From the NCBI GenBank assembly GCA_014695345.1, contig JACJOC010000058.1:62001-126000 (forward strand): 64,000 nt of DNA, in the 5' to 3' direction. A program made the position numbers and the translations under genes. Shown here piece by piece: positions 2 through 15,821 of the stretch. Position 1 is the first letter of the stretch. Every line of letters starts with the position of its first letter. The notes below the pieces were generated by a model that saw only the letters and a program-made list of their open reading frames with translations, ran no database searches and was not told where the DNA came from. Source of the stretch: Cyanobacteria bacterium FACHB-471. GTDB taxonomy: Bacteria; Cyanobacteriota; Cyanobacteriia; Elainellales; Elainellaceae.

Positions 2-565
2 TTGGTGTGGACTTGGTTTCAAGCCTCTTTGTTCCGGGGAGCTAGTTCAATTACAGATGGTCGGGAACTGATTCGGCAGCCCGGATTTCCGGTTGCGATT
101 CTACCGATTGTTGCTGTCACGACTAATCTTGTAAATTTTTTGTTATCTCTCCCGATCCTGCTCCTGTTTTTAGGAAATGAGGGAGGTTGGCTTAAGCCAG
201 CATTTGCACTGCTTCCTATTCTCATCTTGATCCAGTTCTTACTGACTCTCAGCCTGACTTATCTGGTTGCTGCTATTAACGTCACGTTTCGCGACACTCA
301 ACACATCTTAGGAGTTCTTCTTAATCTGGTCTTTTACCTAACTCCAATCTTTTATGACACGGATACGATTCCAGCCCAATACCTTCAAGCGTTTCATCTC
401 AACCCGATGACTTATTTGATCGAGGCTTATCGTACTGTATTGCTTGAAGGAGCGCTGCCGGGCTTGCTACCACTTCTGTTCTTGACTTTGATGTCTCTGG
501 GTCTTTTGTTTGGTACTTATCGGATCTTTCGACGAGCAAGCTACCGTTTTGCAGAGGAATTGTAA
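2..565 (+). CDS. ABC-2 type polysaccharide exporter permease (Wzm-like), 5' partial
   Basis: This is the C-terminal 187 residues of a membrane permease that would move a finished polysaccharide across the cytoplasmic membrane with the ATPase that follows. It has several strongly hydrophobic segments (about residues 31-56, 67-95, 103-122 and 155-172). The 'NPMTYLIEAYR' stretch between the late helices is typical of ABC-2 O-antigen/teichoic-acid permeases. Such proteins are usually about 260-280 residues, and the reading frame is open to the window edge, so roughly 80 N-terminal residues lie outside. The first codon shown (TTG) is not taken as a real start. The stop codon directly abuts the ATG of the ATPase gene, so translation is probably coupled. 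Confidence 0.88.
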   Translation: MVWTWFQASLFRGASSITDGRELIRQPGFPVAILPIVAVTTNLVNFLLSLPILLLFLGNEGGWLKPAFALLPILILIQFLLTLSLTYLVAAINVTFRDTQHILGVLLNLVFYLTPIFYDTDTIPAQYLQAFHLNPMTYLIEAYRTVLLEGALPGLLPLLFLTLMSLGLLFGTYRIFRRASYRFAEEL

Positions 566-1834
566 ATGCAGCACGCCATTCTCGCGCAGGGCTTATACAA
601 GCAGTTCACTCGATATCATGCAAATAAACCCACGACGCTGCAAGAAGCAATTTTGCGCGGACTGCGTCGCATGAAACCCATCGACCAGTTTTGGGCACTG
701 CGTGATGTTAGCTTTAGCATTGAGCCGGGACGGATGGTGGGGCTAATTGGCCGCAACGGGTCGGGCAAATCAACGTTGCTCAGGCTTTTGGGGGGAATCG
801 GGCGACCTGACAAGGGAAAAATCAGAACTTACGGCAAAGTTAGGGCTTTGCTCGACTTGGGTGTGGGATTACATCCTGACCTGACTGGGAGAGAAAATGT
901 TTTTGTGAGCGGCGTGATATCTGGGCTAACGCGACGTGAGGTGCAGCAACGCTTTGACTCAATCGTGGGATTTGCAGAGCTAGAGTCTTCAATTGATAAT
1001 CCTCTACGTACTTACAGCACAGGGATGAGATTGCGACTGGGCTTTGCGATCGCTGTGCATACTTCTCCTGAAATTTTGCTCCTGGATGAAGTGCTCGCGG
1101 TAGGAGATCTCTCGTTTCAGCGAAAATGTCTGGACCGAATTAACCAGTTTAAGGCAGAAGGATGCGCCATCATCCTAGTTTCCCATGATGAGTCTCAAAT
1201 CCAGCAGCTTTGTGATGAAGTCATCTATTTGCGTGAGGGGCAATTGGTCGCGCATGGTGAACCCGAAATCGTGATCGGACAATATGTTGCCGAAATCAGT
1301 AATCGAACACATCAACGCACACCACAAGAACATTTAACTTCAACTACAGAGTCCGGCATTGAACTGAGGCTACACGAAAATCGCTTTGGTTCTCTGGAAA
1401 TGCAGATTACAAACGTGCAATTGCTAAGTGCAGCAGGGTTCACCGTTAAAGAATTGCACAGTGGTGACGCACTACAAATCGAGATTGAATATTCAGCGCC
1501 TCAGCCGATCGCTTCCCCCATCTTTGGAGTGACGATAACCCGTGAAGACCAACTTGCTTGTTACGACACAAACACAGCAGCAACTGGACAAGCGACACCA
1601 ACAATTCAGGGACAGGGGAAAATCACGCTTCACTTAAAGAGGTTGGATCTCAACAGCGGACAGTACTACGTCAACGTGAGCATTTATGAGTCGGAGTGGA
1701 ACTATGCCTACGATCACCATTGGCATGTTTATCCTTTGCTGATTCGGCAGAGTGGCTATGAGAAGGGAATATTGAGTGTGCCTCATCAGTGGGAGTTTGA
1801 CAATGCTCAAACCCTTGCACACAGAGGTCACTAG
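566..1834 (+). CDS. Polysaccharide ABC transporter ATP-binding protein (Wzt-like) with C-terminal glycan-recognition region
   Basis: This is the ATPase subunit of the exporter. The nucleotide-binding domain (about residues 1-245) has Walker A GRNGSGKST at 62-70, an ABC signature of the variant form YSTGMRLRLGFA at 150-161, Walker B ILLLDE at 170-175 and the switch histidine in SHD near 207. This signature variant is usual in O-antigen and teichoic-acid exporters. After a linker, residues about 265-405 form a beta-rich region like the Wzt C-terminal domain, which in characterised O-antigen systems binds the modified non-reducing end of the glycan. At 422 residues the protein is long enough for that domain, unlike short TagH/KpsT types. 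The start ATG follows the upstream stop with no gap. The substrate cannot be read from the sequence. Confidence 0.92.
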   Translation: MQHAILAQGLYKQFTRYHANKPTTLQEAILRGLRRMKPIDQFWALRDVSFSIEPGRMVGLIGRNGSGKSTLLRLLGGIGRPDKGKIRTYGKVRALLDLGVGLHPDLTGRENVFVSGVISGLTRREVQQRFDSIVGFAELESSIDNPLRTYSTGMRLRLGFAIAVHTSPEILLLDEVLAVGDLSFQRKCLDRINQFKAEGCAIILVSHDESQIQQLCDEVIYLREGQLVAHGEPEIVIGQYVAEISNRTHQRTPQEHLTSTTESGIELRLHENRFGSLEMQITNVQLLSAAGFTVKELHSGDALQIEIEYSAPQPIASPIFGVTITREDQLACYDTNTAATGQATPTIQGQGKITLHLKRLDLNSGQYYVNVSIYESEWNYAYDHHWHVYPLLIRQSGYEKGILSVPHQWEFDNAQTLAHRGH

Positions 1835-1917
1835 ACCAATCTAGTGAAACTGTTTCGAGACAAATCTGAAGTACGACGTGCATTAACTACGAGGCTGCCC
1901 GTGCTACCTATTGCGAG

Positions 1918-4356
1918 ATGACAGATATGGCTTACTCGACAACTTCTGAAAATCCGGCATCGAACAGCAACCTTCATCTCGTGGTCGTCGAGGCATATGA
2001 AGGAGTAGCGGAGCTGTATGCAGACGAGCCAGAGGAGATAAAAGCCGCTAGAGGGTTAGGGCTTCCTGTTGCAGAAATTGCAGAGCAACTAGATTGTCGC
2101 ATTACAGTTCTGAGTTGGGATCAGTGGCGAAATTATGAAGTTAGAAAACTGTGGACACCTACGCCAGCTACTCGCCCAAGTACGCCACCTGATTTTAGCC
2201 ACATGCAGGTTGATTTTCAATCAGAGCGAGTTAAGCAAGTCTCACTTCCTGCAGTCGATCCAGACTACGGGTTGCCGTTTGAGGAGTGTGGCTTAAGCCC
2301 GCGATCGCATGGACTCATCAACGACAGTGGCTTATTGTTTTTCGCATCCTACTGTCTTCTGAGAGAAATCAAAGTACTTCATCAGCAAGATCCTTTTCAA
2401 GCTGTAATTCTGCCTATGTGGGGCGGAGTTGGCTATGTCTCTCAAATGGCACGGGCAACCCATGCTCCAAATCAACTGGATGTGCCCTTCGGCGTGGTTG
2501 TAACAGATCCCTCACTTACCCGTCAACGTGCCAACCAAGAAGGGGAATGGCTCCGTCATGCCGTCATCCGCCGTCAAATGGAAGACTTATCGCTAGCACT
2601 CGCCGACCTGACGCTAGCTTTTGGACTGAGAGGAAAAGAAACGGCGATCGCCGGAAGACTACCTGAAGCTTCCCTTCCTGTTTTAGCCCCTCGATTTGTA
2701 GAAGCGTCTTGTCTAGATGCGATCGCCTACGCAGCGAACCATCCTGCCCAGAGTTACCAGTCTCTTCAGTTTTTTCTCTATGAACCGCAGGAAGCTGCGT
2801 CAGGAGTGCTGAATACATTAGACGCGGTTGCACAGTTAAACCGTCAAGAACTAAGACTAGAACAACCTGTAATAAGTTCCGGTCCTGAAATGACTTTTGC
2901 TCCCATGAAGCCTAGGGAGTTTACACATTACTGGTCTTCACGCGGATTTGTCCGAGAATTGGTGCGCGATCGCCAATGGCAATGGCAGCGGGACTATCCA
3001 CAAATTACACAAGGTTTCCGGATTCGTTTATATCCCAGTAATTTTGAGTACTTACCGAACGTTTGGGCAGAACTAGCCCGTTGCTCTTTTGTGGTGTTGT
3101 CCCCAGCAGCAGCCGAAGGACTTGCAGCCGGAACAGCTTTACCCCAAGAAGTCTTGATTCAGGGAGAACCCAACCCAGAAACTTTAGCAAATCACTTGCA
3201 ATGGATTGCACAAGCAGATTTGCAGCAGCTAGATCAGATTAGACAAAACCTGTGCCGCCAAGTTGTTGAAGCTCATCGAGGTGAAGGAAGACAGCGGTTG
3301 CTTGATGAAACTGCTACCAGCTTAGGGCAACTCCTGGCTAGTCCTCCTCCACCACAGGATTTGTCGGGAGTCGCGCTGCTATTAGGCGATCGCCGTTTCC
3401 CTTTACAAACCCTTGCCCAACAAAATCAACCCCCTTCCCTACCAGAAAGCAATTCTCACATTCAGCCAGGCACGTTGTCTGTAGTTGTGCCTTGTTATGA
3501 GATGGGAGCCATGCTCAAGGAAGCGATAGAGAGCATCTGGAAGTCTGAGCGGTGCCCGGATGAAGTACTCATTATTGATGACGGGTCACAGGGCGAAGAA
3601 ACCATTACAACCATTCGAGAATTAGAAGCGATCGCTTCTAGCAAAGGATTGCCCCTAAGGGTAATTCGCAAACGTAACGGGGGGCTAGCGGCTGCCAGAA
3701 ATACTGGACTTGCAGCGGCAACCGGAGAATTTATCTCTTTTCTAGATGGCGATGACTTGATTGAACCACAGTTTTACTCGCTCGCTCAACACCTGCTTCA
3801 GCAGTATCCTCTGTTGGGTGGTGTTGCAGCCTGGGCTTCTATTTTTGGGACAGGTATCCCAGATGGATTCTGGAACTCCCCTCAACCAGAACTACCATTT
3901 CTGCTGATCGAAAACAGTGTATTTATTCCCTGCTTGACTCGTACTGTTCTCCTCCGACAGCTTGGTGGCTACGACACTCGCCAGAGATATAACTATGAAG
4001 ACTGGGAACTTAGCGTTCGAATGCTAGCAGCAGGGTGGATGATTGTCACCATTCCAATGCAGCTAATGAGATATCGCATCCGCCAAGACTCACTTTATCG
4101 CAGCATGACAGATGTACAAAATCAGGTGATGCGAGAACTGTTTTTGACAACTCACCAAGATGTGGTTTCTAAGTTTGCAGTAGCGATCGCCATGCAGCTA
4201 GAGCACCAGTGGAAACAACTTGCCTATGCAGAGCCACCTTCTAACTCACCTGTATTAACGCAAGTGAGCAATCTGTACACTGCTCTTGCATCTACCCCGA
4301 TTCCTAAGTATCTAGCGGTTATCCAACGGTTCGTCAGTCGCTTCAAGAGAACTTAA
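1918..4356 (+). CDS. Two-part glycosyltransferase: uncharacterised N-terminal half plus C-terminal GT2
   Basis: An 812-residue protein. The C-terminal part from about residue 518 is a GT-A fold family 2 glycosyltransferase. It opens with SVVVPCYEMG, has the nucleotide-binding DDGS near 554-557, the metal-binding LDGDD at 609-613 and a late acceptor-side NYEDWELSVR motif. The N-terminal half (about 1-510) resembles the Rossmann-like N-terminal part of GT-B enzymes, but I do not recognise a complete family in it. No membrane segment is evident, so a cytoplasmic or peripheral enzyme is likely. It is the first of three consecutive glycosyltransferase genes on this strand. The ATG at 1918 was kept because the sequence from there onwards is coherent; the next ATG is only three codons later. 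Donor and acceptor sugars are unknown. Confidence 0.85.
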   Translation: MTDMAYSTTSENPASNSNLHLVVVEAYEGVAELYADEPEEIKAARGLGLPVAEIAEQLDCRITVLSWDQWRNYEVRKLWTPTPATRPSTPPDFSHMQVDFQSERVKQVSLPAVDPDYGLPFEECGLSPRSHGLINDSGLLFFASYCLLREIKVLHQQDPFQAVILPMWGGVGYVSQMARATHAPNQLDVPFGVVVTDPSLTRQRANQEGEWLRHAVIRRQMEDLSLALADLTLAFGLRGKETAIAGRLPEASLPVLAPRFVEASCLDAIAYAANHPAQSYQSLQFFLYEPQEAASGVLNTLDAVAQLNRQELRLEQPVISSGPEMTFAPMKPREFTHYWSSRGFVRELVRDRQWQWQRDYPQITQGFRIRLYPSNFEYLPNVWAELARCSFVVLSPAAAEGLAAGTALPQEVLIQGEPNPETLANHLQWIAQADLQQLDQIRQNLCRQVVEAHRGEGRQRLLDETATSLGQLLASPPPPQDLSGVALLLGDRRFPLQTLAQQNQPPSLPESNSHIQPGTLSVVVPCYEMGAMLKEAIESIWKSERCPDEVLIIDDGSQGEETITTIRELEAIASSKGLPLRVIRKRNGGLAAARNTGLAAATGEFISFLDGDDLIEPQFYSLAQHLLQQYPLLGGVAAWASIFGTGIPDGFWNSPQPELPFLLIENSVFIPCLTRTVLLRQLGGYDTRQRYNYEDWELSVRMLAAGWMIVTIPMQLMRYRIRQDSLYRSMTDVQNQVMRELFLTTHQDVVSKFAVAIAMQLEHQWKQLAYAEPPSNSPVLTQVSNLYTALASTPIPKYLAVIQRFVSRFKRT

Positions 4357-4372
4357 GTATTTTAATTGCTTT

Positions 4373-6631
4373 ATGAAACACCTAATTATCTGTGGTGAAT
4401 ATCCTCCCGCACCCTTTCCACCCGGAGGTATTGGAACTTACGTCATGCACATTGCCCGCCTGCTTGCCGAAAGTGGCGAGACGGTACATGTAATTACGCA
4501 GCTTTGGGCAGGTGCCGCCAAGCGAATTGAGGAGAAATGCCAGGGCAGACTCATTATTCACCGTGTACCGCTTGATGATTGGGACTCCTTTCTCCTACGA
4601 AGCCCCAATTCTGAGCAACGAGCAAAAGAAGTGAAGGCGCTCTCCCAGTCCTGCTTTCCGGCTCAAGCCTTTTCCTGGCAGGCAAGCTTACTCGCAGAAC
4701 AACTGGTTGAAGAAGAGGGTATTGATCTGATCGAGGCACAGGATTATGAGGCTCCTCTCTACTACTTCCAGTTGCGGCGGGCATTAGGACTTGGACCAAA
4801 ACAAACGCCCCCTTGTTTAATTCACCTACACTCTCCCACAGAATTTATTGCTCAGCATAACGACTGGGATATCAGTTTGCCCAATCTGTTGACCGCCAAA
4901 CGGTTGGAGGACTATAGCATTGGGGCAGCGGATGCATTGCTGTGCCCCAGTCAATACTTTGCTAGCCAAGCAGAAACTCATTACGGATTAACAAAAGGAA
5001 GTATTCAAGTCATTCCTCTACCAATCGGTGATAATCCAACGCTAAAGCGCGACTCAGAAACCTGGCAGCAAGGCAACATCTCTTATATAGGGCGGCTAGA
5101 GCGACGAAAAGGAGTACTGGAATGGATTGAGGCTGCGGTGGAGGTAGCTGAGAGCCATCCAACAGCTCAGTTTGAATTTATTGGGACCAACTGCCTAGGT
5201 TCTCATCGAATCAGTGGAGAAGAATTTGTTGAACGGCAAATTCCAGATCATCTCAAAGCAAGATTTCATTTTCGGGGTAGGCAAAATCGTTCCGTTTTAC
5301 CGCGCTTTTTGAGGCGATCGCGCATTGCTGTTGTGCCATCCCGCTGGGAAAACTTTCCAAACACTTGTGTGGAGGCAATGTGTTCAGGATTGCCCGTGAT
5401 TGCCTCTCCAGAAGGTGGCATGGTAGAGATGATCAAAGATGGTGAAACAGGTTGGCTAGCAGACAGTGCCAGTTCACAAAGCCTTGCCACAGTTCTCAAA
5501 CGAGCCTTGGAGACCCCACCCGCTGAAATAGCTGAGATGGGTGACAAAGCGGCCTTCTCAATTCGCCAAATGTGTGATAACGAGAGAATTCTGGAGAAAC
5601 ATCTAGAACTCAGGCAACAGCTCGTTGATCACAAGGCAAAACGCTCTCTCTGTCTGCCTGTTAATCTCCCTTGGCAAAAACAACCGCTATCTAATGAGTC
5701 CGCTCACCGAGTTGCTAAAACTGACGCTGAAGGAATTGCAGTTGTAATCTCCTGTTTCAATGATGGAGAAATTCTTGATAAATGCCTGCAGAGTGTAGCG
5801 AATCAATCCCAAAAGCCAATAAAAATAGTCATAGTAGACAGTGGCTCAACTGATGAACAAACGCTGAAAGGGCTACGGCAGGCAGAATGGGATGGCTTGC
5901 AAATTATTCAAAACAAGAAGGGAGATCCAGTTTCAGCCAAAAACCTAGGCATCAAGTCTATCTTGCAGTCTGAGTGTAAGCCTTTAGGATTTGCCTTCTT
6001 TGAAGCGAAACACATCTTCTACCCCAACTTTATTGAAACCTGTGAATCAACACTCCGCAAGTGTCCAGAAGTTGGAGTTGTTTCCTGTTGGGCACGAGAG
6101 GGTGGTAGTGAACAAGCTTGGGTGAAACCTTGTCCTAGTTTTCCCTATCAATGGCTAACGAATGAAGCAGTTCCGTTCAGTGTCGTCCGAACAGAAACAC
6201 TGCATGAAGTCAATCAATTCAGAGCAGAAATGCATCAAGGATACGAGGACTGGGATTTGCTCAATGCAATTCTAGCGGCAGGATGGGTTGCTGTGACACT
6301 TCCCGAAATCCTTGCCGATGACTGGTCGGGCAACAGTTCTGTTCTCAATATGCCTAGCATTCACGCTCACGGCAGAATGCGTCGAGAAATGCTGGAAAGG
6401 TTTCCAGGTTTAGTTGCTCGTGATGCCCAAGAAATTGCGCTCCTGAGTAGTTTGAACCCTGTACCGTCTATTCAACAGGAGTTGTCTACACCTCAAGGCA
6501 AGCAATTTCTGACTCAAATCATTCTTTCTTCATTCAAAGAAGCAACTTTGCGGATTCTTGGAAAAGTCAAAAGCACTGTCTTTCAAGTCTTGTCCTCTTT
6601 TCTGAAACCAATCAGAAAACAGGCAGTTTGA
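4373..6631 (+). CDS. Fused glycosyltransferase: N-terminal GT4, C-terminal GT2-like domain lacking DxD
   Basis: A 752-residue fusion. Residues about 1-420 are a GT-B family 4 transferase. It begins with the glycine-rich acceptor loop PPGGIGTY, has GRLERRKG near 240 opening the donor domain, and an EX7E-type motif (WENFPNTCVE) near 326-336 followed by CSGLPVIAS. Residues about 450-700 have the layout of a GT2 domain (VVISCFNDGE, VDSGSTD, a late YEDWDLLNAI motif). However, where GT2 enzymes carry the metal-binding DxD in a 'fLDaDD' context, this one reads FAFFEAKHIF. The second domain may therefore be inactive or serve in binding. It lies 16 bp after the preceding glycosyltransferase gene and is probably in the same operon. 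Confidence 0.86.
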   Translation: MKHLIICGEYPPAPFPPGGIGTYVMHIARLLAESGETVHVITQLWAGAAKRIEEKCQGRLIIHRVPLDDWDSFLLRSPNSEQRAKEVKALSQSCFPAQAFSWQASLLAEQLVEEEGIDLIEAQDYEAPLYYFQLRRALGLGPKQTPPCLIHLHSPTEFIAQHNDWDISLPNLLTAKRLEDYSIGAADALLCPSQYFASQAETHYGLTKGSIQVIPLPIGDNPTLKRDSETWQQGNISYIGRLERRKGVLEWIEAAVEVAESHPTAQFEFIGTNCLGSHRISGEEFVERQIPDHLKARFHFRGRQNRSVLPRFLRRSRIAVVPSRWENFPNTCVEAMCSGLPVIASPEGGMVEMIKDGETGWLADSASSQSLATVLKRALETPPAEIAEMGDKAAFSIRQMCDNERILEKHLELRQQLVDHKAKRSLCLPVNLPWQKQPLSNESAHRVAKTDAEGIAVVISCFNDGEILDKCLQSVANQSQKPIKIVIVDSGSTDEQTLKGLRQAEWDGLQIIQNKKGDPVSAKNLGIKSILQSECKPLGFAFFEAKHIFYPNFIETCESTLRKCPEVGVVSCWAREGGSEQAWVKPCPSFPYQWLTNEAVPFSVVRTETLHEVNQFRAEMHQGYEDWDLLNAILAAGWVAVTLPEILADDWSGNSSVLNMPSIHAHGRMRREMLERFPGLVARDAQEIALLSSLNPVPSIQQELSTPQGKQFLTQIILSSFKEATLRILGKVKSTVFQVLSSFLKPIRKQAV

Positions 6632-6680: not shown

Positions 6681-7616
6681 ATGAATCCCTTAATATCTGT
6701 TGTCATTTGTACACACAATCGAGATCGGTATTTAGGCAAAGCAATTCGAAGTTTGCTCGATCAGCAAATGCCTAAAGATCAATACGAAATCGTCGTAGTT
6801 GATAACCGCTCAACAGATACTACAAAAGACGTAGTAGAGCAATTTTCAGCAGAAAATCCTATTCGATACATTTATGAGCCAAATCTAGGACTTTCCTATG
6901 CACGTAACACGGGCTGGCGTAGCTCCGAAGGGAAGTACATTGCTTATTTAGACGATGATGCGATCGCCCATCCAGGTTGGCTCAACACGATTCTTGAGGT
7001 ATTTGAGACCGTAACTCCAAGACCTGGATGCATCGGTGGAAAAGCAGAAGCGATCTGGGAAGCTCCAAGACCAGACTGGGTTTCTGATGAGTTGGTTACG
7101 GGCTTGACTGTAATTGATTGGTCAGATACTCCGCATCCCATTTCCGATCTATCTCAAGAATGGTTGGTCGGTGCAAATATGGCATTTCCCAAAGAAGTAC
7201 TGGAGGAGATTGACGGATTTATCCCAGGGCTTGACCGAGCAGGCAAGAACTTGTTATCTGGAGGCGATGTTTTTCTAGAGAAGCAAATCATGCAAGCAGG
7301 ATATTCCTGCTTCTATCATCCCAAAATGGCCATTGGTCATCACATTCAAAAAACCAGATTAGATCGTCAGTGGTTTCTTCGGAGATATTACTGGCAAGGA
7401 GTTTCTGATGCTGCAACTCATTTAATTGAACAGTCTCCTTCTGCAATTGGACGGCTGCAAGCTGCTGTATCCAGAGCTGTGAATTTGCTGCGATCGCCCC
7501 AAAAAATTTCTCACCTGTTGTTGCCTAGAGAAGATCCAAAACAATTTACAGAAAAGTGTTTTGCACTGATCGAAGTCGGTCACATCGTCGGACTGTTAGG
7601 AGCAGTACAAAGATAA
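6681..7616 (+). CDS. GT2 family glycosyltransferase
   Basis: A 311-residue, single-domain inverting GT-A glycosyltransferase. Residues 5-14 (ISVVICTHNR) form the first strand and nucleotide contact, DNRSTD at 41-46 the base-binding loop, and LDDDA at 90-94 holds the metal-binding DxD (91-93). An ARNTG motif at 74-78 is typical of the family. The region near GGDVFLEKQIM corresponds to the ED-like catalytic segment, and an RRYYWQG motif follows it. No transmembrane helix is predicted by eye. It lies 49 bp after the fused glycosyltransferase and 6 bp before a GT4 gene, which suggests one transcription unit acting on the same glycan. The sugar specificity cannot be told. Confidence 0.9.
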   Translation: MNPLISVVICTHNRDRYLGKAIRSLLDQQMPKDQYEIVVVDNRSTDTTKDVVEQFSAENPIRYIYEPNLGLSYARNTGWRSSEGKYIAYLDDDAIAHPGWLNTILEVFETVTPRPGCIGGKAEAIWEAPRPDWVSDELVTGLTVIDWSDTPHPISDLSQEWLVGANMAFPKEVLEEIDGFIPGLDRAGKNLLSGGDVFLEKQIMQAGYSCFYHPKMAIGHHIQKTRLDRQWFLRRYYWQGVSDAATHLIEQSPSAIGRLQAAVSRAVNLLRSPQKISHLLLPREDPKQFTEKCFALIEVGHIVGLLGAVQR

Positions 7617-7622
7617 AATGCC

Positions 7623-8678
7623 ATGCATATTCATTTAATTCGTACCCGTTATCCGCATTGGGGTGGAAACTCTGGTATCCACCAGTTTGTTCGATACATC
7701 GATCAAAACAAATATGACATAGATACGTGGGTCGCTTCAGACAGCGATGAAGACTTTCCTCTACAACATTCAGGGTTACGAGATGTGCTGCGCCACGCAG
7801 TTCAAATGCGGGGAATCCAGTGGTACAAATTAAGTGACCTCACCGCAGAGTATAAAGCTCTGCAAAAGTGTTGGAAGCAACAAGTTGATATTGTCCATTA
7901 CCTGGATGGAGAGCACTCACCACAGTTTCTACCCAGGCTGCTCAAGCTATTAGGGAAAAAGCGTCCTAAAGTCATCGCCACCTTCCACCAACCCCCTGAA
8001 CTGCTTGACTCACTTCTCGATCGTTCAGTCATTCCACTACTGGACTTTGTTACGGTAGTATCGCCTGCACAAGTTGCTTATTTTAGTGATTTGATCGGAG
8101 CTGATAAAGTTTCCTCAATTCTACATGGCATTGATACAGACTACTTTCATCCAGGTGATGGATCCAAAGAAGACAAGTTTAAATGCATCACTGTTGGTAA
8201 ATATTTAAGAGATTTTGTAGCATTACGAGCCGTTGCGGAAGCACTCAGCGATCGCAAGGACATTGAATTTCATGTTGTTTCCTCAAATGCAGATGAAGTT
8301 AAAGACTTAGCAAACGTCACAATTCATCAGGGCATTGATGATGCTAGTTTACTCAAGCTTTATCAACAATCCAATTTGTTGTTTCTGCCATTAACTCAAT
8401 CTACTGCCAATAATGCTCTGTTGGAAGGTATTGCCTGTGGGTTACCTGTCTTATCCACCGATTTGCCTTCTGTAAAAGCTTATTTGCCAGGGAAAGAAGC
8501 CATTCTGGTACAAAACAACGATCCAAAACAACTCACAAACGCAATATTAGAACTGGCTGATAATCCAGTAGATTGCAAGGTAATGGGAGCAGAAGCTCGC
8601 AGACGAGCAAGAGAACTGGATTGGAAGAATATTACTTCTCAGTATGAAGCTCTCTATTCTCAAGTCATGAGTAGTTAG
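7623..8678 (+). CDS. GT4 family glycosyltransferase
   Basis: A 351-residue GT-B retaining glycosyltransferase. The N-terminal domain starts with MHIHLIRTRYPHWGGNSGI, a glycine-containing loop near the acceptor site. The hinge region HGIDTDYFHPG near 169-179 is a hallmark of GT4. The donor-binding segment reads STANNALLEGIACGLPVLSTD: the second Glu of the EX7E motif is present, but the first is not, a pattern seen in a subset of GT4 enzymes. It begins 6 bp after the GT2 gene and is followed after about 50 bp by the trifunctional gene, all on one strand. It probably adds one sugar to the glycan made by this locus. Confidence 0.88.
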   Translation: MHIHLIRTRYPHWGGNSGIHQFVRYIDQNKYDIDTWVASDSDEDFPLQHSGLRDVLRHAVQMRGIQWYKLSDLTAEYKALQKCWKQQVDIVHYLDGEHSPQFLPRLLKLLGKKRPKVIATFHQPPELLDSLLDRSVIPLLDFVTVVSPAQVAYFSDLIGADKVSSILHGIDTDYFHPGDGSKEDKFKCITVGKYLRDFVALRAVAEALSDRKDIEFHVVSSNADEVKDLANVTIHQGIDDASLLKLYQQSNLLFLPLTQSTANNALLEGIACGLPVLSTDLPSVKAYLPGKEAILVQNNDPKQLTNAILELADNPVDCKVMGAEARRRARELDWKNITSQYEALYSQVMSS

Positions 8679-8729: not shown

Positions 8730-11700
8730 GTGAACGTATCCATCGTGATCGCTGCCCATAACGCAGCAGGGACAATTGCTGAAACGCTTAATTCCCTCCT
8801 ATGCCAAACTTATTTGGACTGGGAGGCAATCATTGTTGATGACGGCTCAAGCGACGAAACAGCAGCGATCGCGGCTCAATTTACAGCAAAAGATGCCCGA
8901 ATTCAGGTAGTGAGCCAACCTCAAGGAGGGGTCAGTTCAGCTAGAAATCGAGGAGTTAGTTTAGCTCAGTCCAACTGGTTACTTTTTCTAGATGCGGACG
9001 ATTGGCTCTTACCTCCTTGTCTTGAGCTATTGACAAACGTGCTGAAGTTAAACGCTGAAGTAGATGCGGTCTACTGTGGTTGGGCACGAGTTGCCCCAGA
9101 TGGAAGATATATTGACCAGTACTGCTGTCCCTGCTCAGACAACCTATTTGAGGTATTTGCAAAATACTGTGCTTTTGCAATTCACACCTGCATCTTCAGA
9201 CGCTCACTGTTTGAGTCAGTTGGGGGATTTAATCCTTCGCTCAAAACCTGTGAGGATTGGGATCTGTGGCAACGGATTGCTCGCACAGGGGCTTCTTTTG
9301 CAGCCGTTTACAAGGTTCTTGCACTGTATCGGATGAGACCGGATTCAGCTTCAATGAGCAGTTTCCAAGTTTTTACAGATGGTTTGCAGGTAATCACTCA
9401 AGGGCATTCAACTGATCCACGCATCTCGAACCCGGATCCCAATTACCAAAACGGATTACCCACAGACCAACTCTCCAGCACAAAGTATTACTTTGCCTGT
9501 TGGATTGCTGGACTCATGATTGGCAGCGGTAGCGATGCGCGATCGCTGCTCGAAGTTCTCAAAGATGAACCTGCTCCTGAGCTAGATCCACAAAACATTG
9601 TCCAAAATCTCTTCCTAGCATCGCTTTTACCTACCTGCCAAACTCCAAGTGAATGGAATAAACTTTGGGCTACTATACAAGCGCAAGTTAACAATTTCCT
9701 ACTTGCTTTAGAGGAACAAACTCAAATTTCAGGATTACATCACGATGTTTATACTGCTCTTGAACAGCACTGCTCAGAGCCATTAGCAATACCAGAACGT
9801 ATGGAAACTAAAGTTTCACATACTATTCAGCTTGAGATTACAGAACCCATACCTAACCTTTCCTTGCCAGAAGGGGTTGAACGCCTGCATTGCACCATTG
9901 AACTAGAAGGAACTTGTCTCGGCACATTAGAACTTCCCGTTTTTGAAGGGTATGTTCATAGTTATGTGTTGACTGATGCGATCGCCGCTGACTTTGCTTG
10001 GCAAATTATAGGGCATTTCTTTGAGCACACTGTTTATCCCTCCTTGAGTATTGAAACACAGGAAACTCGTTCATCCATTCGACGAGGAAACCTGTGCCTT
10101 GCAGAATTACCGTCTGAACAACCTATCGTTTGGTCGAAAATTCATAATCAGATTGGCTGGACAGTGTTTCTACAAGAGATTTGGGCACGTCCAGATTTGC
10201 CAGAGGCTAGCTTTTATGATCCTCAAGCGCCAGAAGAGCCGAGCACAAAGTGTTGCTTAAGTGACGGTTGGCTCACACTTGAAGTGAGTGAAACATTGCC
10301 AGACATAAAAGTTGCAGGACAACAGCTTGACGTAGTTCTTACAGTAGGTGGAGTTGCTATTGGAGTTGTCCCGGTACCTGTTAAAGATGATGTGGTGCGA
10401 TCGCAAGAACTTAGAGCAGCACTTACAGCCGCCGCAGGATACGAACTCTGCTGCACAGCCGTCCGAGAAGGGCTCCTTGGCAGACCTGTTACAGAGCCAA
10501 CCTCTCTCCGAGATAGACTCCTCGAAGCAGCTTCTCACAATTCGCCTACTGATGCTCTTAACCGCGTCTTATCACCCAATGAGAGAGGTGTGGTGCTAGG
10601 GCGACGTACCTTTAATGAGTTTGGGACGAGCGCTTCTCGCAGGGCGGTGTTTCCCGCCACAGTAGCCCGTGAACTGAGTGATTGTGCTTTGATGGCTGGC
10701 GAACCTGTTTTACATGTGCTGGAGCCAAGTGAACAAGCTGCTCATGTAGTCTATGCACCTGATTTAATTTGGTGTCCCGTTCAAAAGCAAAAACCCTCTT
10801 CCACACATACGTTCCGCTCCAACACAAAACAGGCAGTTGAGGTACCGCTTTATAATCGCAGCTACTTTGAAACGACCTTTGCAACCGGTCCCGTTCACTG
10901 GAATTACACGAACCAGTATGAACAAATCAAGTATGAGCAAACGCTTTCCTTGCTACCCCCCAAGCCAATCGCACGGGTGCTTGAGCTTGCTTGCGCTGAA
11001 GGACACTTCACCGCACAGCTGGCTCCTCACGTTGAACATTTGACTGCTGCAGATATTTCTCAAATTGCCCTTGAGCAAGCGGCTGAACGGTGCGCTGCCC
11101 TAAAAAACGTTGACTTCATGCATCTCGACTTCATGAAGGAACCACTGCCTGAGCCGTTCGATTTAATTATTTGTAGTGAAGTACTTTACTTTGCCAATGA
11201 GCGAGAAACCCTTCAGAACGTGGCTCAAAAGTTTGCGGATGCCCTCGCACCTGGTGGTTACTTATTAACGGCACATGCAAACCTGGTTGTTGATGAACCT
11301 GATTGTCCTGGCTTTAACTGGAACTTTCCATTTGGGGCAAAAGTAATTGGGGAAATACTAGCAACCACACCATCCCTTCACCTAGCTAGGGAAATCTGGA
11401 CTCCACTTTATCGAATTCAGCTTTTTCAACGTAGCCCGCAGTTTCGGTGGTTCTTCTCTCAAACCGCTCCAGAGTTGATTAAATTGCCGCAACCTACACC
11501 ACCCCCACCTCAAGTTGCCGCCGATGTTTTGTGGAATGGAGGTACGCCCCGCGATCAGACAGTTCAATCTGTTTCAACCTATCATCTCCCGATTCTCATG
11601 TACCATCGGGTTGCCCCTAGCGGTGCGTCGGAGTCAGCTCGCTATCGTGTCAGTCCGGATGCCTTTGAGGAACAGGTTCGTTATTTATATGACGCAGGAT

Positions 11701-12275
11701 ACTACAGCATTACGCTAGAGGATTGGCACGCCGCAATGAAAGCTCACCGACCGTTACCAGGTCGAGCTATCATGTTTACCTTTGATGACGGCTATCAAGA
11801 CTTTCAAACCTATGCCTGGCCAATCCTGAAGCAGTATGGATTCACAGCGATTGTCTTTCTGGTTGCAAGTTTAGTAGGCAAAACCAATCTTTGGGATCAG
11901 GCTTACGGAGAAGAAATTCCCCTCCTTGAATGGCAGCAAATTCGACAACTAGAGAGTGAAGGAGTTGAATTTGGCTCACACTCTACAAACCATCATCCGC
12001 TAACCACAATTCCTTATGAGGCAGTAATCCGAGAAGGAATTTGCTCACGTATGATTTTGGAGCGGGAACTGGGACACCTCGTCAAAACCTTTGCCTATCC
12101 TCACGGTGCTGAAGATCGAGTCATCCAGCATCTAATAGGAGCTTGTGGCTACTCCTTTGGATTAAGTTGCCGATCGGGATTGTGTGGTCTACAGGAACCT
12201 CTACTCGCTCTGCCTCGCATTGAAATCACTGGTTCTGATAAGTTGCGTGATTTTGTTGCGAAGCTAAATCCATGA
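8730..12275 (+). CDS. Trifunctional protein: GT2 glycosyltransferase / NodS-like methyltransferase / NodB-like polysaccharide deacetylase
   Basis: An 1181-residue protein with at least four parts. (1) Residues 1-230 are a GT2 transferase: VSIVIAAHNA, VDDGSSD at 36-42, DADD at 88-91. (2) Residues about 240-700 are poorly known and contain two copies of a beta-rich module (about 363-432 and 507-584). (3) Residues about 735-920 are a SAM-dependent methyltransferase: VLELACAEGHFT near 749-760, LIICSEVLYFA later, the pattern of NodS N-methyltransferases. (4) Residues about 950-1181 are a NodB-type deacetylase: MYHRV, TFDDGY near 1016-1021 and SHSTNHHPL near 1082-1090, the usual metal-binding aspartate and histidines. 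Start is GTG, preceded by GGAGA 4-5 bp upstream. Family knowledge suggests transfer, deacetylation and N-methylation of an amino sugar; the combination on one substrate is inferred. Confidence 0.9.
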   Translation: MNVSIVIAAHNAAGTIAETLNSLLCQTYLDWEAIIVDDGSSDETAAIAAQFTAKDARIQVVSQPQGGVSSARNRGVSLAQSNWLLFLDADDWLLPPCLELLTNVLKLNAEVDAVYCGWARVAPDGRYIDQYCCPCSDNLFEVFAKYCAFAIHTCIFRRSLFESVGGFNPSLKTCEDWDLWQRIARTGASFAAVYKVLALYRMRPDSASMSSFQVFTDGLQVITQGHSTDPRISNPDPNYQNGLPTDQLSSTKYYFACWIAGLMIGSGSDARSLLEVLKDEPAPELDPQNIVQNLFLASLLPTCQTPSEWNKLWATIQAQVNNFLLALEEQTQISGLHHDVYTALEQHCSEPLAIPERMETKVSHTIQLEITEPIPNLSLPEGVERLHCTIELEGTCLGTLELPVFEGYVHSYVLTDAIAADFAWQIIGHFFEHTVYPSLSIETQETRSSIRRGNLCLAELPSEQPIVWSKIHNQIGWTVFLQEIWARPDLPEASFYDPQAPEEPSTKCCLSDGWLTLEVSETLPDIKVAGQQLDVVLTVGGVAIGVVPVPVKDDVVRSQELRAALTAAAGYELCCTAVREGLLGRPVTEPTSLRDRLLEAASHNSPTDALNRVLSPNERGVVLGRRTFNEFGTSASRRAVFPATVARELSDCALMAGEPVLHVLEPSEQAAHVVYAPDLIWCPVQKQKPSSTHTFRSNTKQAVEVPLYNRSYFETTFATGPVHWNYTNQYEQIKYEQTLSLLPPKPIARVLELACAEGHFTAQLAPHVEHLTAADISQIALEQAAERCAALKNVDFMHLDFMKEPLPEPFDLIICSEVLYFANERETLQNVAQKFADALAPGGYLLTAHANLVVDEPDCPGFNWNFPFGAKVIGEILATTPSLHLAREIWTPLYRIQLFQRSPQFRWFFSQTAPELIKLPQPTPPPPQVAADVLWNGGTPRDQTVQSVSTYHLPILMYHRVAPSGASESARYRVSPDAFEEQVRYLYDAGYYSITLEDWHAAMKAHRPLPGRAIMFTFDDGYQDFQTYAWPILKQYGFTAIVFLVASLVGKTNLWDQAYGEEIPLLEWQQIRQLESEGVEFGSHSTNHHPLTTIPYEAVIREGICSRMILERELGHLVKTFAYPHGAEDRVIQHLIGACGYSFGLSCRSGLCGLQEPLLALPRIEITGSDKLRDFVAKLNP

Positions 12276-12335: not shown

Positions 12336-14024
12336 ATGGAATCAATACCAGAGCATAAAATCATACGCTCACAACTTTTTTCAGATTGTTTCTTCTTGAG
12401 TATTGTTGTCCTAATCTCTTTAATTCTCTACATTCCGTCTCTCGGCTTTTATAGTGACGACTGGTCATTTTTAGCACCTCTTAATCTCTCTACAGATCAA
12501 TCCTTTCTGGGGTTATTTCAATCTATCTATCTACATCAGCCTAACGTCCAGATGCGACCTGTGCAGGTTCTTTACATTGCAGGTCTTTATTGGTTATTTG
12601 GCTTAAATCCATTAGGATATCATCTAATCAATTGTGTATTTCTTAGCTTGGGAATCGTCTTCTTCTACTTAGTTCTTAGAGAATTAAAGCAACCACGCTT
12701 TCTTGCACTATCCATTCCGTTAGTATATGCGCTACTTCCTCACTATTCAACGAACCGATTTTGGGTAGCAGCTTTTCAAATTACTTTAAGCATGACCCTA
12801 TACTTTCTAAGTTTATATGCAGACCTTGTAGCAGTACGTACCAAAACGACATCAGGACTGTGGGCTTGGAAGTTGATCAGTATTGCAAGCCTTTTAATTA
12901 GTGGGTTAGCCTATGAAATCTTTTTGCCCTGGTTTCTATTTAACCCCTTATTATCTTGGTATAAGGGGAGATTACTCAATCAATCAATTTTAAGCTATTT
13001 CAGCAAGCTAAAATTAATATTGTTAATGGGAAGCACGTTCCCTTGCGTAGTATTTGTGTTTCTCTTCAAGAAGGTGACAACAACTCGTCAAGGAGAACTT
13101 GAGTTCAAAGAGCATCTAGGTTGGTTTTTTCAACTTTTTAAGGACGCAGTTACAATTAGCTATGGTGACTATGGATTTAAATTACCTCGGATTGTAGGCA
13201 GTATTATTTATAGCCAAACTAACTGGGTAATATTAATATTAGGCGGATTGGTGGGGTTGGTTGTGTTCAGTTATCTATTTCATATCGTTAAACTACAGAA
13301 CATTAACCTACTCAATTACACTAACGGACTGAAATTGACTTTAGCTAGTTTCTTTGTTTTTGCAGCAGGCTATTCAATATTTTTGCTTACGCAAAACGCC
13401 CAAAACTCAGCCGCAGGCATTAGCAACCGTATCGCTATAGCCTCGGCAATAGGAGTAGCATTTACTTTCATAGGCTTAATCGGACTGGCAAGCAGTTTTA
13501 TTCGTACAAATCGCTCACGTAAAGTCCTTTTTTGCCTGCTAATCGCTTTACTCTGTAGTAGTGGTTTTATAATCAACAATGCCATTGCTTCCTATTGGGC
13601 TGATGCCTACCGTCAAGAACAGAATATCCTTGCTGATATTCAACAACACCTGCCATCCTTAAAGGATGATGCTACTTTGATTCTTGACGGGATCTGTCCC
13701 TATTCCGGACCAGCAGTCGTTTTTGAGTCCAATTGGGATTTAGCAGGAGCATTGCGGATAATCTATAAAACCTACACTTTGAAAGCTGATGTCGTGACGC
13801 CTAATTTACAAGTGAATGAGGATGGACTTACCACAGCCTTATACTACGGATCACTAGTGAGTCATTATCCCTACGAAAATCTATTGATTTACAATATTAA
13901 AGACAAATTAGTTCATGAGATAACGGATGCGGATGCAGCTTATCGCTATTTTCAAACTTTTAATGCTGACTATGACAACAATTGCCCCAAAGGAAGAGAA
14001 GGTCATGGCGTAAGAATTTTCTAA
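12336..14024 (+). CDS. Polytopic membrane protein, possible GT-C glycosyltransferase
   Basis: A 562-residue protein with about ten or more hydrophobic segments spread over residues 18-430, then a soluble C-terminal part of about 130 residues. Near the first periplasmic loop it reads YSDDWSFLAPL; an acidic pair before Trp at this place is the catalytic signature position of GT-C enzymes such as the PMT/ArnT-like and GT39/GT83 families. That supports, but does not prove, use of a lipid-linked sugar donor. A role as glycan polymerase is an alternative. The coding region is visibly richer in A+T than its neighbours, and I saw no HIP1 octamer in its 1.7 kb, which may point to separate origin. It is convergent with the next gene. 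Confidence 0.7.
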   Translation: MESIPEHKIIRSQLFSDCFFLSIVVLISLILYIPSLGFYSDDWSFLAPLNLSTDQSFLGLFQSIYLHQPNVQMRPVQVLYIAGLYWLFGLNPLGYHLINCVFLSLGIVFFYLVLRELKQPRFLALSIPLVYALLPHYSTNRFWVAAFQITLSMTLYFLSLYADLVAVRTKTTSGLWAWKLISIASLLISGLAYEIFLPWFLFNPLLSWYKGRLLNQSILSYFSKLKLILLMGSTFPCVVFVFLFKKVTTTRQGELEFKEHLGWFFQLFKDAVTISYGDYGFKLPRIVGSIIYSQTNWVILILGGLVGLVVFSYLFHIVKLQNINLLNYTNGLKLTLASFFVFAAGYSIFLLTQNAQNSAAGISNRIAIASAIGVAFTFIGLIGLASSFIRTNRSRKVLFCLLIALLCSSGFIINNAIASYWADAYRQEQNILADIQQHLPSLKDDATLILDGICPYSGPAVVFESNWDLAGALRIIYKTYTLKADVVTPNLQVNEDGLTTALYYGSLVSHYPYENLLIYNIKDKLVHEITDADAAYRYFQTFNADYDNNCPKGREGHGVRIF

Positions 14025-14096: not shown

Positions 14097-15821
14097 TCAA
14101 AGTTGACGCGAAAATCCGGCTTGGACACCATGCTCTGGATTCCGTAATCGAATTGCTCTATCCGGTTGATTTGTACAAGGTAATTCTGCTGCCCAACAAG
14201 CCCCCTTTTGATTTTTTGGAGAGAAGTAGGTTACGTCATTAATTTGTTTTTCTACCACTTCTACTTGAACAACTTGGGGCGGTAAAAGGAGGCGCGATCG
14301 CACTCCTTGACTGGTTAAGCTCGTTCCAACCATGGCAGCCAACAATAGTGAAATGAATAGACTTTGGTGCTGTAGCTTCTTAAGTTGCCATGAAGACAGC
14401 GGCCGGTTAGTAATTCTCGCCAAACTAACTTGGAGTTGTGATTGAAATAGGAGAGCAGCCAGCAAAGTAGGCAAAAGAACAAAATATCCTATACCAAACC
14501 TCAACAAAGGTGCTTGCGATAAGGTGAAAGCGCTTCCAACAAACGCCAAGATTAAAATCCAACAGTAACTGAAATTCTGTTTTGCTCGGGATTCTTTGAT
14601 TACATAACCCGTTGATGCAATAGATATTCCAACTAATAGCACAATTAATTTACTTGAGCTGATAGAGTTAAACCATTGCCAGAACAGCCATAGACTGGAG
14701 TTGGCTTGAGAGGGCGGAGAGCCAAACCAACTGCCCCAACCACGAGTTACTTCACCAAGCGCTTGAGCTTCGTGAGAAGTGATTGCCCAGGGCACGTCAA
14801 GACATAGTAAAGGAGAAGGATATAGCAAGCAACCAGAATTGGTTGCTCCAAAGAAAAGTATGGGTAGTAAGAGTAAAATACTGACTACACTGCCCACCAA
14901 AAATCGTCTTGAACTAAATCTTCTACCGAACAAGTACACTAGGCTAGTGACAAACAGAAGAGGCAGGGCTGTAAGCTTAATTGATGTTGCTCCAATAGCT
15001 AATATTAGGGGAATCAAATCAGCATAAAGAACTGGATGCTTCAACTGAGTAGAATTAATGGAATCGGAACTTACTAATATCACCCAAGCAACCACACCCG
15101 TCAAAAAGATAACTGGAATGTCAGGAGAGGGAGAGATTAAAACAGTTGACAAAAGCCGGGTCGCAACACTGCCCGAAATAACTATAAATAAGAAAAATAC
15201 GATAAACCAGTCACTAATTTTTGATTTTTTAGCAAAGCCTTGAGTTAAACAGACTATACAATGCAAGGATGCCAGAAATATAACAAAACCATTCGTTACG
15301 GCACTAGCTCGACCTTCCAGGAAGACGGCATTGAGAGGTGCGGCAAGAGCAAACCAGGCGGAGGCAAAGCCGAGTTGCTTTGAAAGTAAGGCGATACCGG
15401 GAACTGCACCAAATTCTGATAACCAACGGATTGCACCATAGTGATAAAGACCTGTGTCAATCCAGGTCACTTGGCGTGTGGTTAAGGCGGCAACTCCAAT
15501 GGACAGCGTCAAGATTCCTACAAGTACACTGGGGGTCAAGTGCGATCGCAGTATTGCGATTTCACATCGAACCTTTGGGGACAGCAAGGACAGAAAGCCT
15601 AGTATCGCAGCTACTAATCCTCCTACCCAGGACGATAAAGCAAAGATAAAAGACGTTGCTAAAAGCGCAATAGAAAGGAAAACAACGCCCAACCAAAGAG
15701 AAATAATTGAGCGATCGCCCAATCTCACAAAAATGTTTGCTTTCAAACTATTCAGCAAGGCTGTGCCAGTTAACCAACAAACAATACTTAAAAGAGTCCA
15801 AACAGCAATAAAGTAGAGCAT
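14097..15821 (-). CDS. Large polytopic membrane protein of unknown function
   Basis: A 574-residue protein with about twelve hydrophobic helices. Between early helices it carries VTWIDTGLYHYGAIRWL (about residues 118-134), an acidic plus GLYH motif that recalls a family of uncharacterised bacterial membrane proteins found in glycan loci (I think of the LIC_10190-like group, but cannot confirm). The C-terminal about 60 residues are hydrophilic and end with two cysteines in CWAAELPC. A role as GT-C transferase, polymerase or ligase for the surrounding glycan locus is plausible from context only. It is the only gene of the locus on this strand and is divergent from the next GT2 gene across 491 bp. 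Unlike its AT-rich neighbour it does contain HIP1 octamers. Confidence 0.7.
   Translation of the reverse strand: MLYFIAVWTLLSIVCWLTGTALLNSLKANIFVRLGDRSIISLWLGVVFLSIALLATSFIFALSSWVGGLVAAILGFLSLLSPKVRCEIAILRSHLTPSVLVGILTLSIGVAALTTRQVTWIDTGLYHYGAIRWLSEFGAVPGIALLSKQLGFASAWFALAAPLNAVFLEGRASAVTNGFVIFLASLHCIVCLTQGFAKKSKISDWFIVFFLFIVISGSVATRLLSTVLISPSPDIPVIFLTGVVAWVILVSSDSINSTQLKHPVLYADLIPLILAIGATSIKLTALPLLFVTSLVYLFGRRFSSRRFLVGSVVSILLLLPILFFGATNSGCLLYPSPLLCLDVPWAITSHEAQALGEVTRGWGSWFGSPPSQANSSLWLFWQWFNSISSSKLIVLLVGISIASTGYVIKESRAKQNFSYCWILILAFVGSAFTLSQAPLLRFGIGYFVLLPTLLAALLFQSQLQVSLARITNRPLSSWQLKKLQHQSLFISLLLAAMVGTSLTSQGVRSRLLLPPQVVQVEVVEKQINDVTYFSPKNQKGACWAAELPCTNQPDRAIRLRNPEHGVQAGFSRQL

Follow-up and report, generated by a model that had tools for sequence, protein, structure and literature searches.

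Two described pathways bear on the protein considered here. Nod factors are the work of NodC, NodB and NodS, and according to one account chitooligomers are never N-methylated unless they have been deacetylated beforehand, NodB acting first and NodS after it (PMC5080398). For terminated O-antigens, another account describes a Wzt module that reads the chain end, export of terminated chains only, and terminating enzymes that possess a coiled-coil ruler (PMC11231755). Here we analysed a stretch of 64,000 nucleotides from Cyanobacteria bacterium FACHB-471 (contig JACJOC010000058.1, positions 62,001 to 126,000; hereafter the window), in which one open reading frame of 1181 codons on the forward strand, running from a GTG start to a stop codon (8730–12275), encodes a glycosyltransferase, an S-adenosylmethionine (SAM)-dependent methyltransferase and a deacetylase. 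We propose that its product is a cytosolic enzyme that would give a glycan chain an N-methylated amino sugar, most likely on or close to its non-reducing end, before the chain is exported by Wzm–Wzt. We regard this mechanism as a whole as evenly poised between right and wrong, and hold its core, deacetylation followed by methylation, with more confidence than the cap.

A Pfam domain search and the catalytic residues together bear out the preliminary description of this frame as a family 2 glycosyltransferase (GT2), a SAM methyltransferase and a deacetylase in one 1181-residue polypeptide. The GT2 domain (residues 1–215; 8730–9374, on the forward strand like every feature below unless stated) matches PF00535 over residues 4–163 (E = 8e-33), has K4CP (2z86) and heparosan synthase as its nearest solved chains, and contains the motifs DDGS (37–40), DADD (88–91) and CEDWDLW (174–180). 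The methyltransferase domain (residues 705–930; 10842–11519), identified by its Pfam match, a tree and an alignment with NodS (3ofj), matches PF05401 (NodS) over residues 727–849 (E = 2.6e-17), the runner-up being Methyltransf_25 (E = 2e-15). The deacetylase domain (residues 948–1181; 11571–12272), which belongs to carbohydrate esterase family 4 (CE4), matches PF01522 (Polysacc_deac_1) over residues 1008–1142 (E = 1.1e-21) and was further placed by profile scores and by alignment with 6dq3 and 3vus. With roles taken from the family, the alignment with PplD and PgaB identifies D1019 as the base and D1020 as a metal ligand (codons at 11784–11789), and H1084 and H1088 as the metal ligands of the HxxxH motif (11979–11993). 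In alignments the catalytic residues of all three domains are present in the window protein, and no catalytic set is lost.

This order of GT2, methyltransferase and CE4 deacetylase in a single frame is the one that RefSeq names 'trifunctional glycosyltransferase/class I SAM-dependent methyltransferase/polysaccharide deacetylase', as the preliminary description had correctly stated for other cyanobacteria. WP_013334356.1 of Gloeothece verrucosa PCC 7822, for example, has the same domains in the same order and is 48% identical over its full length, with no difference in layout seen. The architecture is already a named family, and not new. We know of no tested function for the family, and in the literature searched, which most subscription journals lie outside, we found neither a function nor a description of the architecture, nor any paper with the phrase 'trifunctional glycosyltransferase'. 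What the present analysis adds is a coupling between the methyltransferase and the deacetylase site, the pairing of related methyltransferases with deacetylases, a sulfotransferase variant, and a shared middle module.

To collect relatives, each species was represented by a single genome, and the scan gave 79 loci from the best 80 of 105 relatives. A methyltransferase-bearing frame of the trifunctional kind is present in 76 of the 79, and the same domains recur in a frame of each of five plasmid records; together these exclude a chance frame. Residue conservation was counted over 82 methyltransferase-bearing rows, namely the window, the 76 loci and the five plasmid records. Mesorhizobium accounts for 35 of these rows. 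Six of the 88 rows aligned bear no methyltransferase and were left out before counting: a methyltransferase-less copy in locus L072, and short frames lacking both the methyltransferase and the deacetylase (L074, L131, L132 and second frames of L070 and L061). The methyltransferase residues E752, G758 and D775 are intact in all 82 rows, the deacetylase residues D1019, D1020, H1084 and H1088 (DDHH) in 81, and the glycosyltransferase residues D88, D90 and D176 in 77; of the five remaining rows, one is truncated by the end of its contig.

Among members that keep the deacetylase domain, both losses of the methyltransferase coincide with loss of the deacetylase site, as against a single row, L073, of the 82 that bear a methyltransferase. 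One loss is seen in the second copy in Scytolyngbya (L072, 16285–19227), a few kilobases downstream, in which H1084 is replaced by arginine and the glycosyltransferase residues D88, D90 and D176 are kept. The other is a set of fusions, present in 7 of 386 cyanobacterial genomes (five of the seven scanned with Pfam), in which a sulfotransferase precedes the middle part and the deacetylase domain and the methyltransferase is missing; the metal site is lost in all seven, through D1020G together with H1084M or H1084L. In a scan of their family 33 genomes matched, and 30 of them, the genomes of the seven included, gave a locus (L233–L262), with D1020G in 30 of 30 and methionine or leucine in the 28 that cover position 1084. 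In a tree of deacetylase domains, which left out a few further near-copies and about the same 31 Mesorhizobium loci as the methyltransferase tree described below, and the bootstrap of which had not settled, one branch (95/90) holds 28 trifunctional rows, the seven sulfotransferase fusions and the methyltransferase-less copy. Because the methyltransferase and the deacetylase site are present or lost together, the simplest reading of the coupling would be one two-step reaction, deacetylation and then methylation.

The labels that the preliminary description had given to the two domains, NodS pattern and NodB deacetylase, hold at the level of superfamily and fold and fail at the level of the enzyme. 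NodS provides the best profile for the methyltransferase domain and its best-matching solved relative (3ofj; E = 2.9e-16), aligned across the SAM-binding half and the stretch preceding it. With the NodS model NF041650, however, the domain (METHYLTRANSFERASE) scores 77.8 bits, where the cut-off is 300 and two true NodS proteins reach 345 and 341. In a tree of 80 sequences, which left out 31 Mesorhizobium loci, seven NodS proteins form a clade of their own (100/100) apart from 51 trifunctional rows; the trifunctional methyltransferases group with one split relative (90/94) and join those of the PIG-L operons described below (91/81), both pairs of values being below the starred level. Because it lies outside the NodS clade and below the NodS cut-off, we class the domain as NodS-like, and not as NodS itself. 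The deacetylase domain scores 12.8 bits with the NodB model TIGR04243 (cut-off 240; a true NodB, 319.4) versus 111.3 bits with the PgaB equivalog TIGR03938, a score that covers the deacetylase part only and lies below the cut-off of 321.9. Among solved structures it is closest to PplD (6dq3) and PgaB, and it aligns with both over TFDDG and HxxxH (SHSTNH). By these comparisons we assign it to the PgaB/PplD type, for which 'NodB' is correct only as the name of the CE4 fold.

Deacetylase genes also accompany most of the NodS-like methyltransferases examined outside the trifunctional family. We compiled 20 such loci, seven from other searches and 13 fetched from the 18 hits, among the matches listed, that were neither nodS nor trifunctional; the five hits left out were two near-copies and three from Deinococcus, and some further weak hits had no locus. 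Five annotated nodS records (L175–L178 and L182), used as known NodS reference, stand outside this count. By profile, a PIG-L deacetylase gene is present at 13 of the 20 loci and a CE4 gene at three, and a further locus has a gene annotated as PIG-L at a distance of 2.8 kb, so that 17 of the 20 have a deacetylase. The PIG-L profile was built from nine of the 13 loci found with it; nine are annotated PIG-L and the other four are profile-only. Around generic Methyltransf_11 genes, taken as a control, no deacetylase gene was found at any of 30 loci, which are all cyanobacterial, come from 13 genomes and span 2.4 to 3.3 kb, as against up to 14 kb and varied taxa for the test loci. Two of the three methyltransferases with a CE4 neighbour are true NodS, and the CE4 gene in L197 is a full-score NodB. 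In the third case (L195, 4899–8066) the NodS-like methyltransferase is fused behind a long hydrophobic part without a Pfam match, and the CE4 gene lies in the same frame directly after the methyltransferase stop codon. Since the PIG-L and CE4 folds are unrelated but catalyse the same chemistry, the pairing points to an amine.

A PIG-L deacetylase and a NodS-like methyltransferase form a recurring operon (L179, L180, L181, L183, L184, L186, L187, L190 and L192), which lies at about positions 800–4700 of each locus stretch, in Deinococcus, Acinetobacter, Bradyrhizobium, Roseomonas, Sphingobium, Novosphingobium and Komagataeibacter. An acyl-CoA dehydrogenase gene is present in eight of the nine (not L180), and a glycosyltransferase gene adjoins the methyltransferase in seven (not L180 or L184). 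A full-text search found no literature on operons of acyl-CoA dehydrogenase, PIG-L and methyltransferase genes.

In the window the trifunctional gene comes seventh in a run of eight genes that share one strand and are separated by at most 83 bases. The cluster begins with a Wzm-like ABC-2 permease truncated at the start of the window (2–565; PF01061, E = 9.6e-14) and a Wzt ATPase (566–1834; PF00005) with a C-terminal carbohydrate-binding domain (Wzt_C, PF14524, E = 1.4e-22), this pair being a feature of terminator systems. Four glycosyltransferase genes follow (1918–4356, 4373–6631, 6681–7616 and 7623–8678; gaps of 6 to 83 bases). The next gene downstream of the trifunctional one encodes a 562-residue membrane protein (12336–14024) with nine hydrophobic stretches and no family match, a relative of which was found, among the loci searched, only in Coleofasciculus (L065) and in the same place. 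The trifunctional gene lies directly after Wzt in L056, L061, L065 and L072, and the sulfotransferase fusions follow Wzm–Wzt in all three loci examined (L200–L202). A wider count left out 30 Mesorhizobium loci so that near-copies would not be counted; of the remaining 54 loci and the window, 52 (the window among them) contain a clustered member of the family. The stretches extend no further than 10 to 20 kb from that gene, and contig ends frequently truncate them. By clustering, Wzm or Wzt occurs in 16 of these 52 neighbourhoods, a one-chain ABC transporter in 20, and both in one. The co-occurrence with Wzt that the preliminary description had singled out for a survey is therefore real for the window and for several further cyanobacteria but not general, and Wzt was rejected as a universal partner. 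Since exporter genes are common as neighbours, a cap made before export is likely.

Our proposal starts from the domain order, the intact active-site residues, the neighbourhood, and the joint presence or loss of the methyltransferase and the deacetylase site, all of which are shown. The protein would be an enzyme of several domains that works in the cytosol, in a surface-glycan pathway that depends on an ABC transporter. Both SAM and sugar nucleotides occur in the cytosol, and the deacetylase should be cytosolic as well because enzymes that use a nucleotide sugar and SAM share its chain. A hydrophobicity scan (no signal-peptide program was used) revealed no hydrophobic N-terminal stretch, and the only two stretches above its threshold lie inside folded parts of the structure model. 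The three active sites of the earlier view are thus supported as parts of one polypeptide, and that polypeptide looks cytosolic. The GT2 domain would add a sugar, most simply an N-acetylamino sugar, onto the growing chain, the CE4 domain would take the acetyl group off the same sugar, and the NodS-like domain would methylate the freed amine, rather than a hydroxyl, with SAM. The resulting N-methylated amino sugar would stand at or near the non-reducing end, where the C-terminal domain of Wzt could recognise it, before Wzm–Wzt exports the chain. The coupling, the deacetylase pairing and the published order of NodB and NodS make an N-methyl amino sugar the most likely product; the terminus suggested in the preliminary description survives to that extent. 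A Nod factor finds no support, since the two domains are not NodS and NodB themselves.

Several observations weigh against this proposal. L073, in which the deacetylase residues read DEYH, keeps a full methyltransferase and is an exception to the coupling; its protein may methylate without a deacetylation of its own. The coupling comes from two events of methyltransferase loss, one of them a whole clade, and the Mesorhizobium rows that make up 35 of the 82 are near-copies. At 3 of the 20 methyltransferase loci outside the family there is no deacetylase in the stretch. We assign no donor sugar to the glycosyltransferase: its best solved match is the 376–567 part of K4CP, fucosyltransferases match too, and the solved relatives use different sugars. 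The methyltransferase part of the bifunctional wreM product of Rhizobium etli, which may or may not belong to the family, reportedly 2-O-methylates fucose. Neither type of exporter is present in 17 of the 52 neighbourhoods, some of them on short contigs, and five Mesorhizobium stretches examined (L083, L088, L097, L105 and L136) have no clustered exporter or glycosyltransferase neighbour. Finally, the coiled-coil ruler of O-antigen terminators was not seen in the structure model, in which the longest helix has 26 residues (no coiled-coil program was used).

The most probable alternative, though one that we think unlikely, is that the domains act on the same chain and on different groups, the glycosyltransferase adding a sugar, the methyltransferase O-methylating a hydroxyl and the deacetylase removing an acyl group elsewhere, with fusion due only to the fact that enzymes of glycan assembly operate in complexes. 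O-methylated ends are reportedly common in O-antigens, L073 keeps its methyltransferase without the metal ligands of the deacetylase, and PF05401 also matches in 8 of 14 control genomes and is not a specific profile. Multimodule proteins with a methyltransferase and a glycosyltransferase are moreover documented for Klebsiella O7 in the O-antigen account (PMC11231755). Independent action, however, would not make the methyltransferase and the deacetylase site vanish together, and it leaves unexplained why related methyltransferases outside the family have deacetylase neighbours in most cases, the majority of them of another fold.

It is improbable, in our estimation, that the protein makes no O-antigen cap but a glycolipid or lipid-linked oligosaccharide for a one-chain ABC exporter to flip, the cyanobacterial link to Wzt being a later redeployment. 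Such transporters are the ones counted in 20 of the 52 neighbourhoods, five that we checked with Pfam carry ABC_membrane and ABC_tran, and the order glycosyltransferase, trifunctional gene, glycosyltransferase, exporter recurs (for example in L116, L117, L120, L126, L135 and L138). The exporter that adjoins the gene in the window is nevertheless Wzm–Wzt, and the clustering may have drawn in exporters that carry other substrates, since that of L119 reads like a type I secretion ATPase; a glycolipid product would also be compatible with the deacetylate-then-methylate step. We give still less credence to the idea that the deacetylase mainly serves as a scaffold that holds the glycan, with catalysis by the glycosyltransferase and the methyltransferase only: the sulfotransferase fusions keep its fold with a broken metal site, which suggests a fold useful without catalysis, but DDHH is kept in 81 of the 82 methyltransferase-bearing rows across many phyla, which a scaffold would not need. 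That the organism makes a true Nod-factor-like lipochitooligosaccharide we consider highly implausible, and we rejected the Nod factor pathway, since only the activities resemble it, the methyltransferase and the deacetylase fail the tests of membership of NodS and NodB, the 25 families listed, out of 38, for the trifunctional protein do not include NodC, and the sole NodC match is a weak one of the neighbouring gene at 1918–4353 (20 bits against a cut-off of 550).

Between the GT2 and the methyltransferase domains lie some 490 residues that lack a Pfam match; residues 211–720, searched separately, gave no Pfam family at E values up to 1. An AlphaFold2 model of the whole protein (alignment of 42 sequences; mean pLDDT 88.2, pTM 0.75) and a separate model of the middle part (alignment of 22; pLDDT 84.6, pTM 0.83) indicate a helical linker (residues 216–350; 9375–9779) without a Pfam match, followed by two related modules, each made of strands and then a helix, the profile of each weakly finding the other. 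The first copy, M1 (residues 357–461; 9798–10112), has beta strands and a long helix, and the second, M2, with a trailing part (residues 507–675; 10248–10754), is common to the sulfotransferase fusions. Weak matches to the module also occur in further proteins encoded in such clusters, of which some group with glycosyltransferases (L072 6175–7524, E = 1.7e-5; L055 2479–3720, E = 7e-4). Foldseek found no match to the module in the PDB at E = 0.001 or better, and VIA-align 2 gave a best Z of 3.2 over 42 residues, results that show neither a new fold nor absence of the fold elsewhere.

As a tentative extension, which we think rather doubtful, the slot after Wzm–Wzt may hold an exchangeable end-capping enzyme built on the shared middle module and the CE4 fold, with an N-methyl amino-sugar cap in one version and a sulfated cap in the other, each the export signal for its own Wzt. 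In the sulfated version a sulfotransferase would have replaced the glycosyltransferase, the methyltransferase would be gone and the deacetylase dead. If true, this would be a new chain-termination chemistry and a rare swap of cap enzymes on a fixed scaffold. The sulfotransferase fusions lie at L200 6483–8927, L201 6583–9069 and L202 7300–10053, for instance, and the sulfotransferase part of one fusion (L035) weakly matches NoeE (32.5 bits, cut-off 500).

The trifunctional family is spread patchily over Cyanobacteria, Verrucomicrobia, Planctomycetes (including Brocadia), Acidobacteria, Gemmatimonadetes, Ignavibacteria, Calditrichia, Omnitrophota, Myxococcota and Proteobacteria. Of 386 cyanobacterial genomes, two, the window's own among them, match the methyltransferase at E = 1e-20; in the class of genome G450 four of 337 genomes match it at E = 1e-15, and only the match in G450 itself is of the trifunctional type. 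The trifunctional protein of Synechococcus sp. CS-1325 (L125) groups among proteobacterial ones in both the methyltransferase and the deacetylase trees, as if transferred between phyla, contamination of the assembly also being possible. Many Mesorhizobium species (L083–L107, L109–L115, L123, L133 and L136) keep a version with a short middle part, and three of these rows (L094, L111 and L136) have changed glycosyltransferase residues. Elsewhere in the window, the second gene downstream of the trifunctional one (14097–15821, reverse strand) belongs to the LIC_10190 membrane family, and a gene at 31232–37051 (forward strand) encodes a 1939-residue hybrid histidine kinase with a long HAMP array, GAF and three response-regulator domains; no RNA family was found in the window at gathering score.

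To our knowledge, little has been established about the surface glycans of cyanobacteria, and for ABC-exported glycans few modifications that end the chain have been described. If the proposed mechanism is true, N-methyl amino sugars would be products of a family that nitrogen-fixing symbionts, anammox bacteria and cyanobacteria have in common. The mechanism also hints at what the unnamed operons of PIG-L and NodS-like methyltransferase genes may do. With both proposed steps in one protein, the proposal is simple to test.

Compared with known systems, the window protein shares with NodC, NodB and NodS the same three kinds of chemistry, but these are separate proteins, and its methyltransferase lies outside the NodS clade and its deacetylase is not of the NodB type. 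PgaB, IcaB and PplD, the closest CE4 relatives of its deacetylase in sequence and fold, act outside the cytoplasm, whereas the deacetylase in the window is fused to enzymes that depend on SAM and a nucleotide sugar. With ORF6 of Klebsiella O7 and the WbdD terminators, as described in the O-antigen account (PMC11231755), it has in common the union of glycosyltransferase and methyltransferase in one protein (O7), the link to Wzm–Wzt and the carbohydrate-binding domain of Wzt; it differs in having a deacetylase, no Pfam match to a kinase family and no coiled-coil ruler in the model. The sulfotransferase fusions, which come from another cyanobacterial family, share its middle module, a deacetylase nested among the trifunctional ones and the place after Wzm–Wzt, and differ in carrying a sulfotransferase in place of GT2, no methyltransferase and a deacetylase whose metal site is lost. 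In the operons of PIG-L and NodS-like methyltransferase genes the two activities are encoded by separate genes and the deacetylase has an unrelated fold, yet their methyltransferases join the trifunctional ones apart from NodS, and a deacetylase is again the partner.

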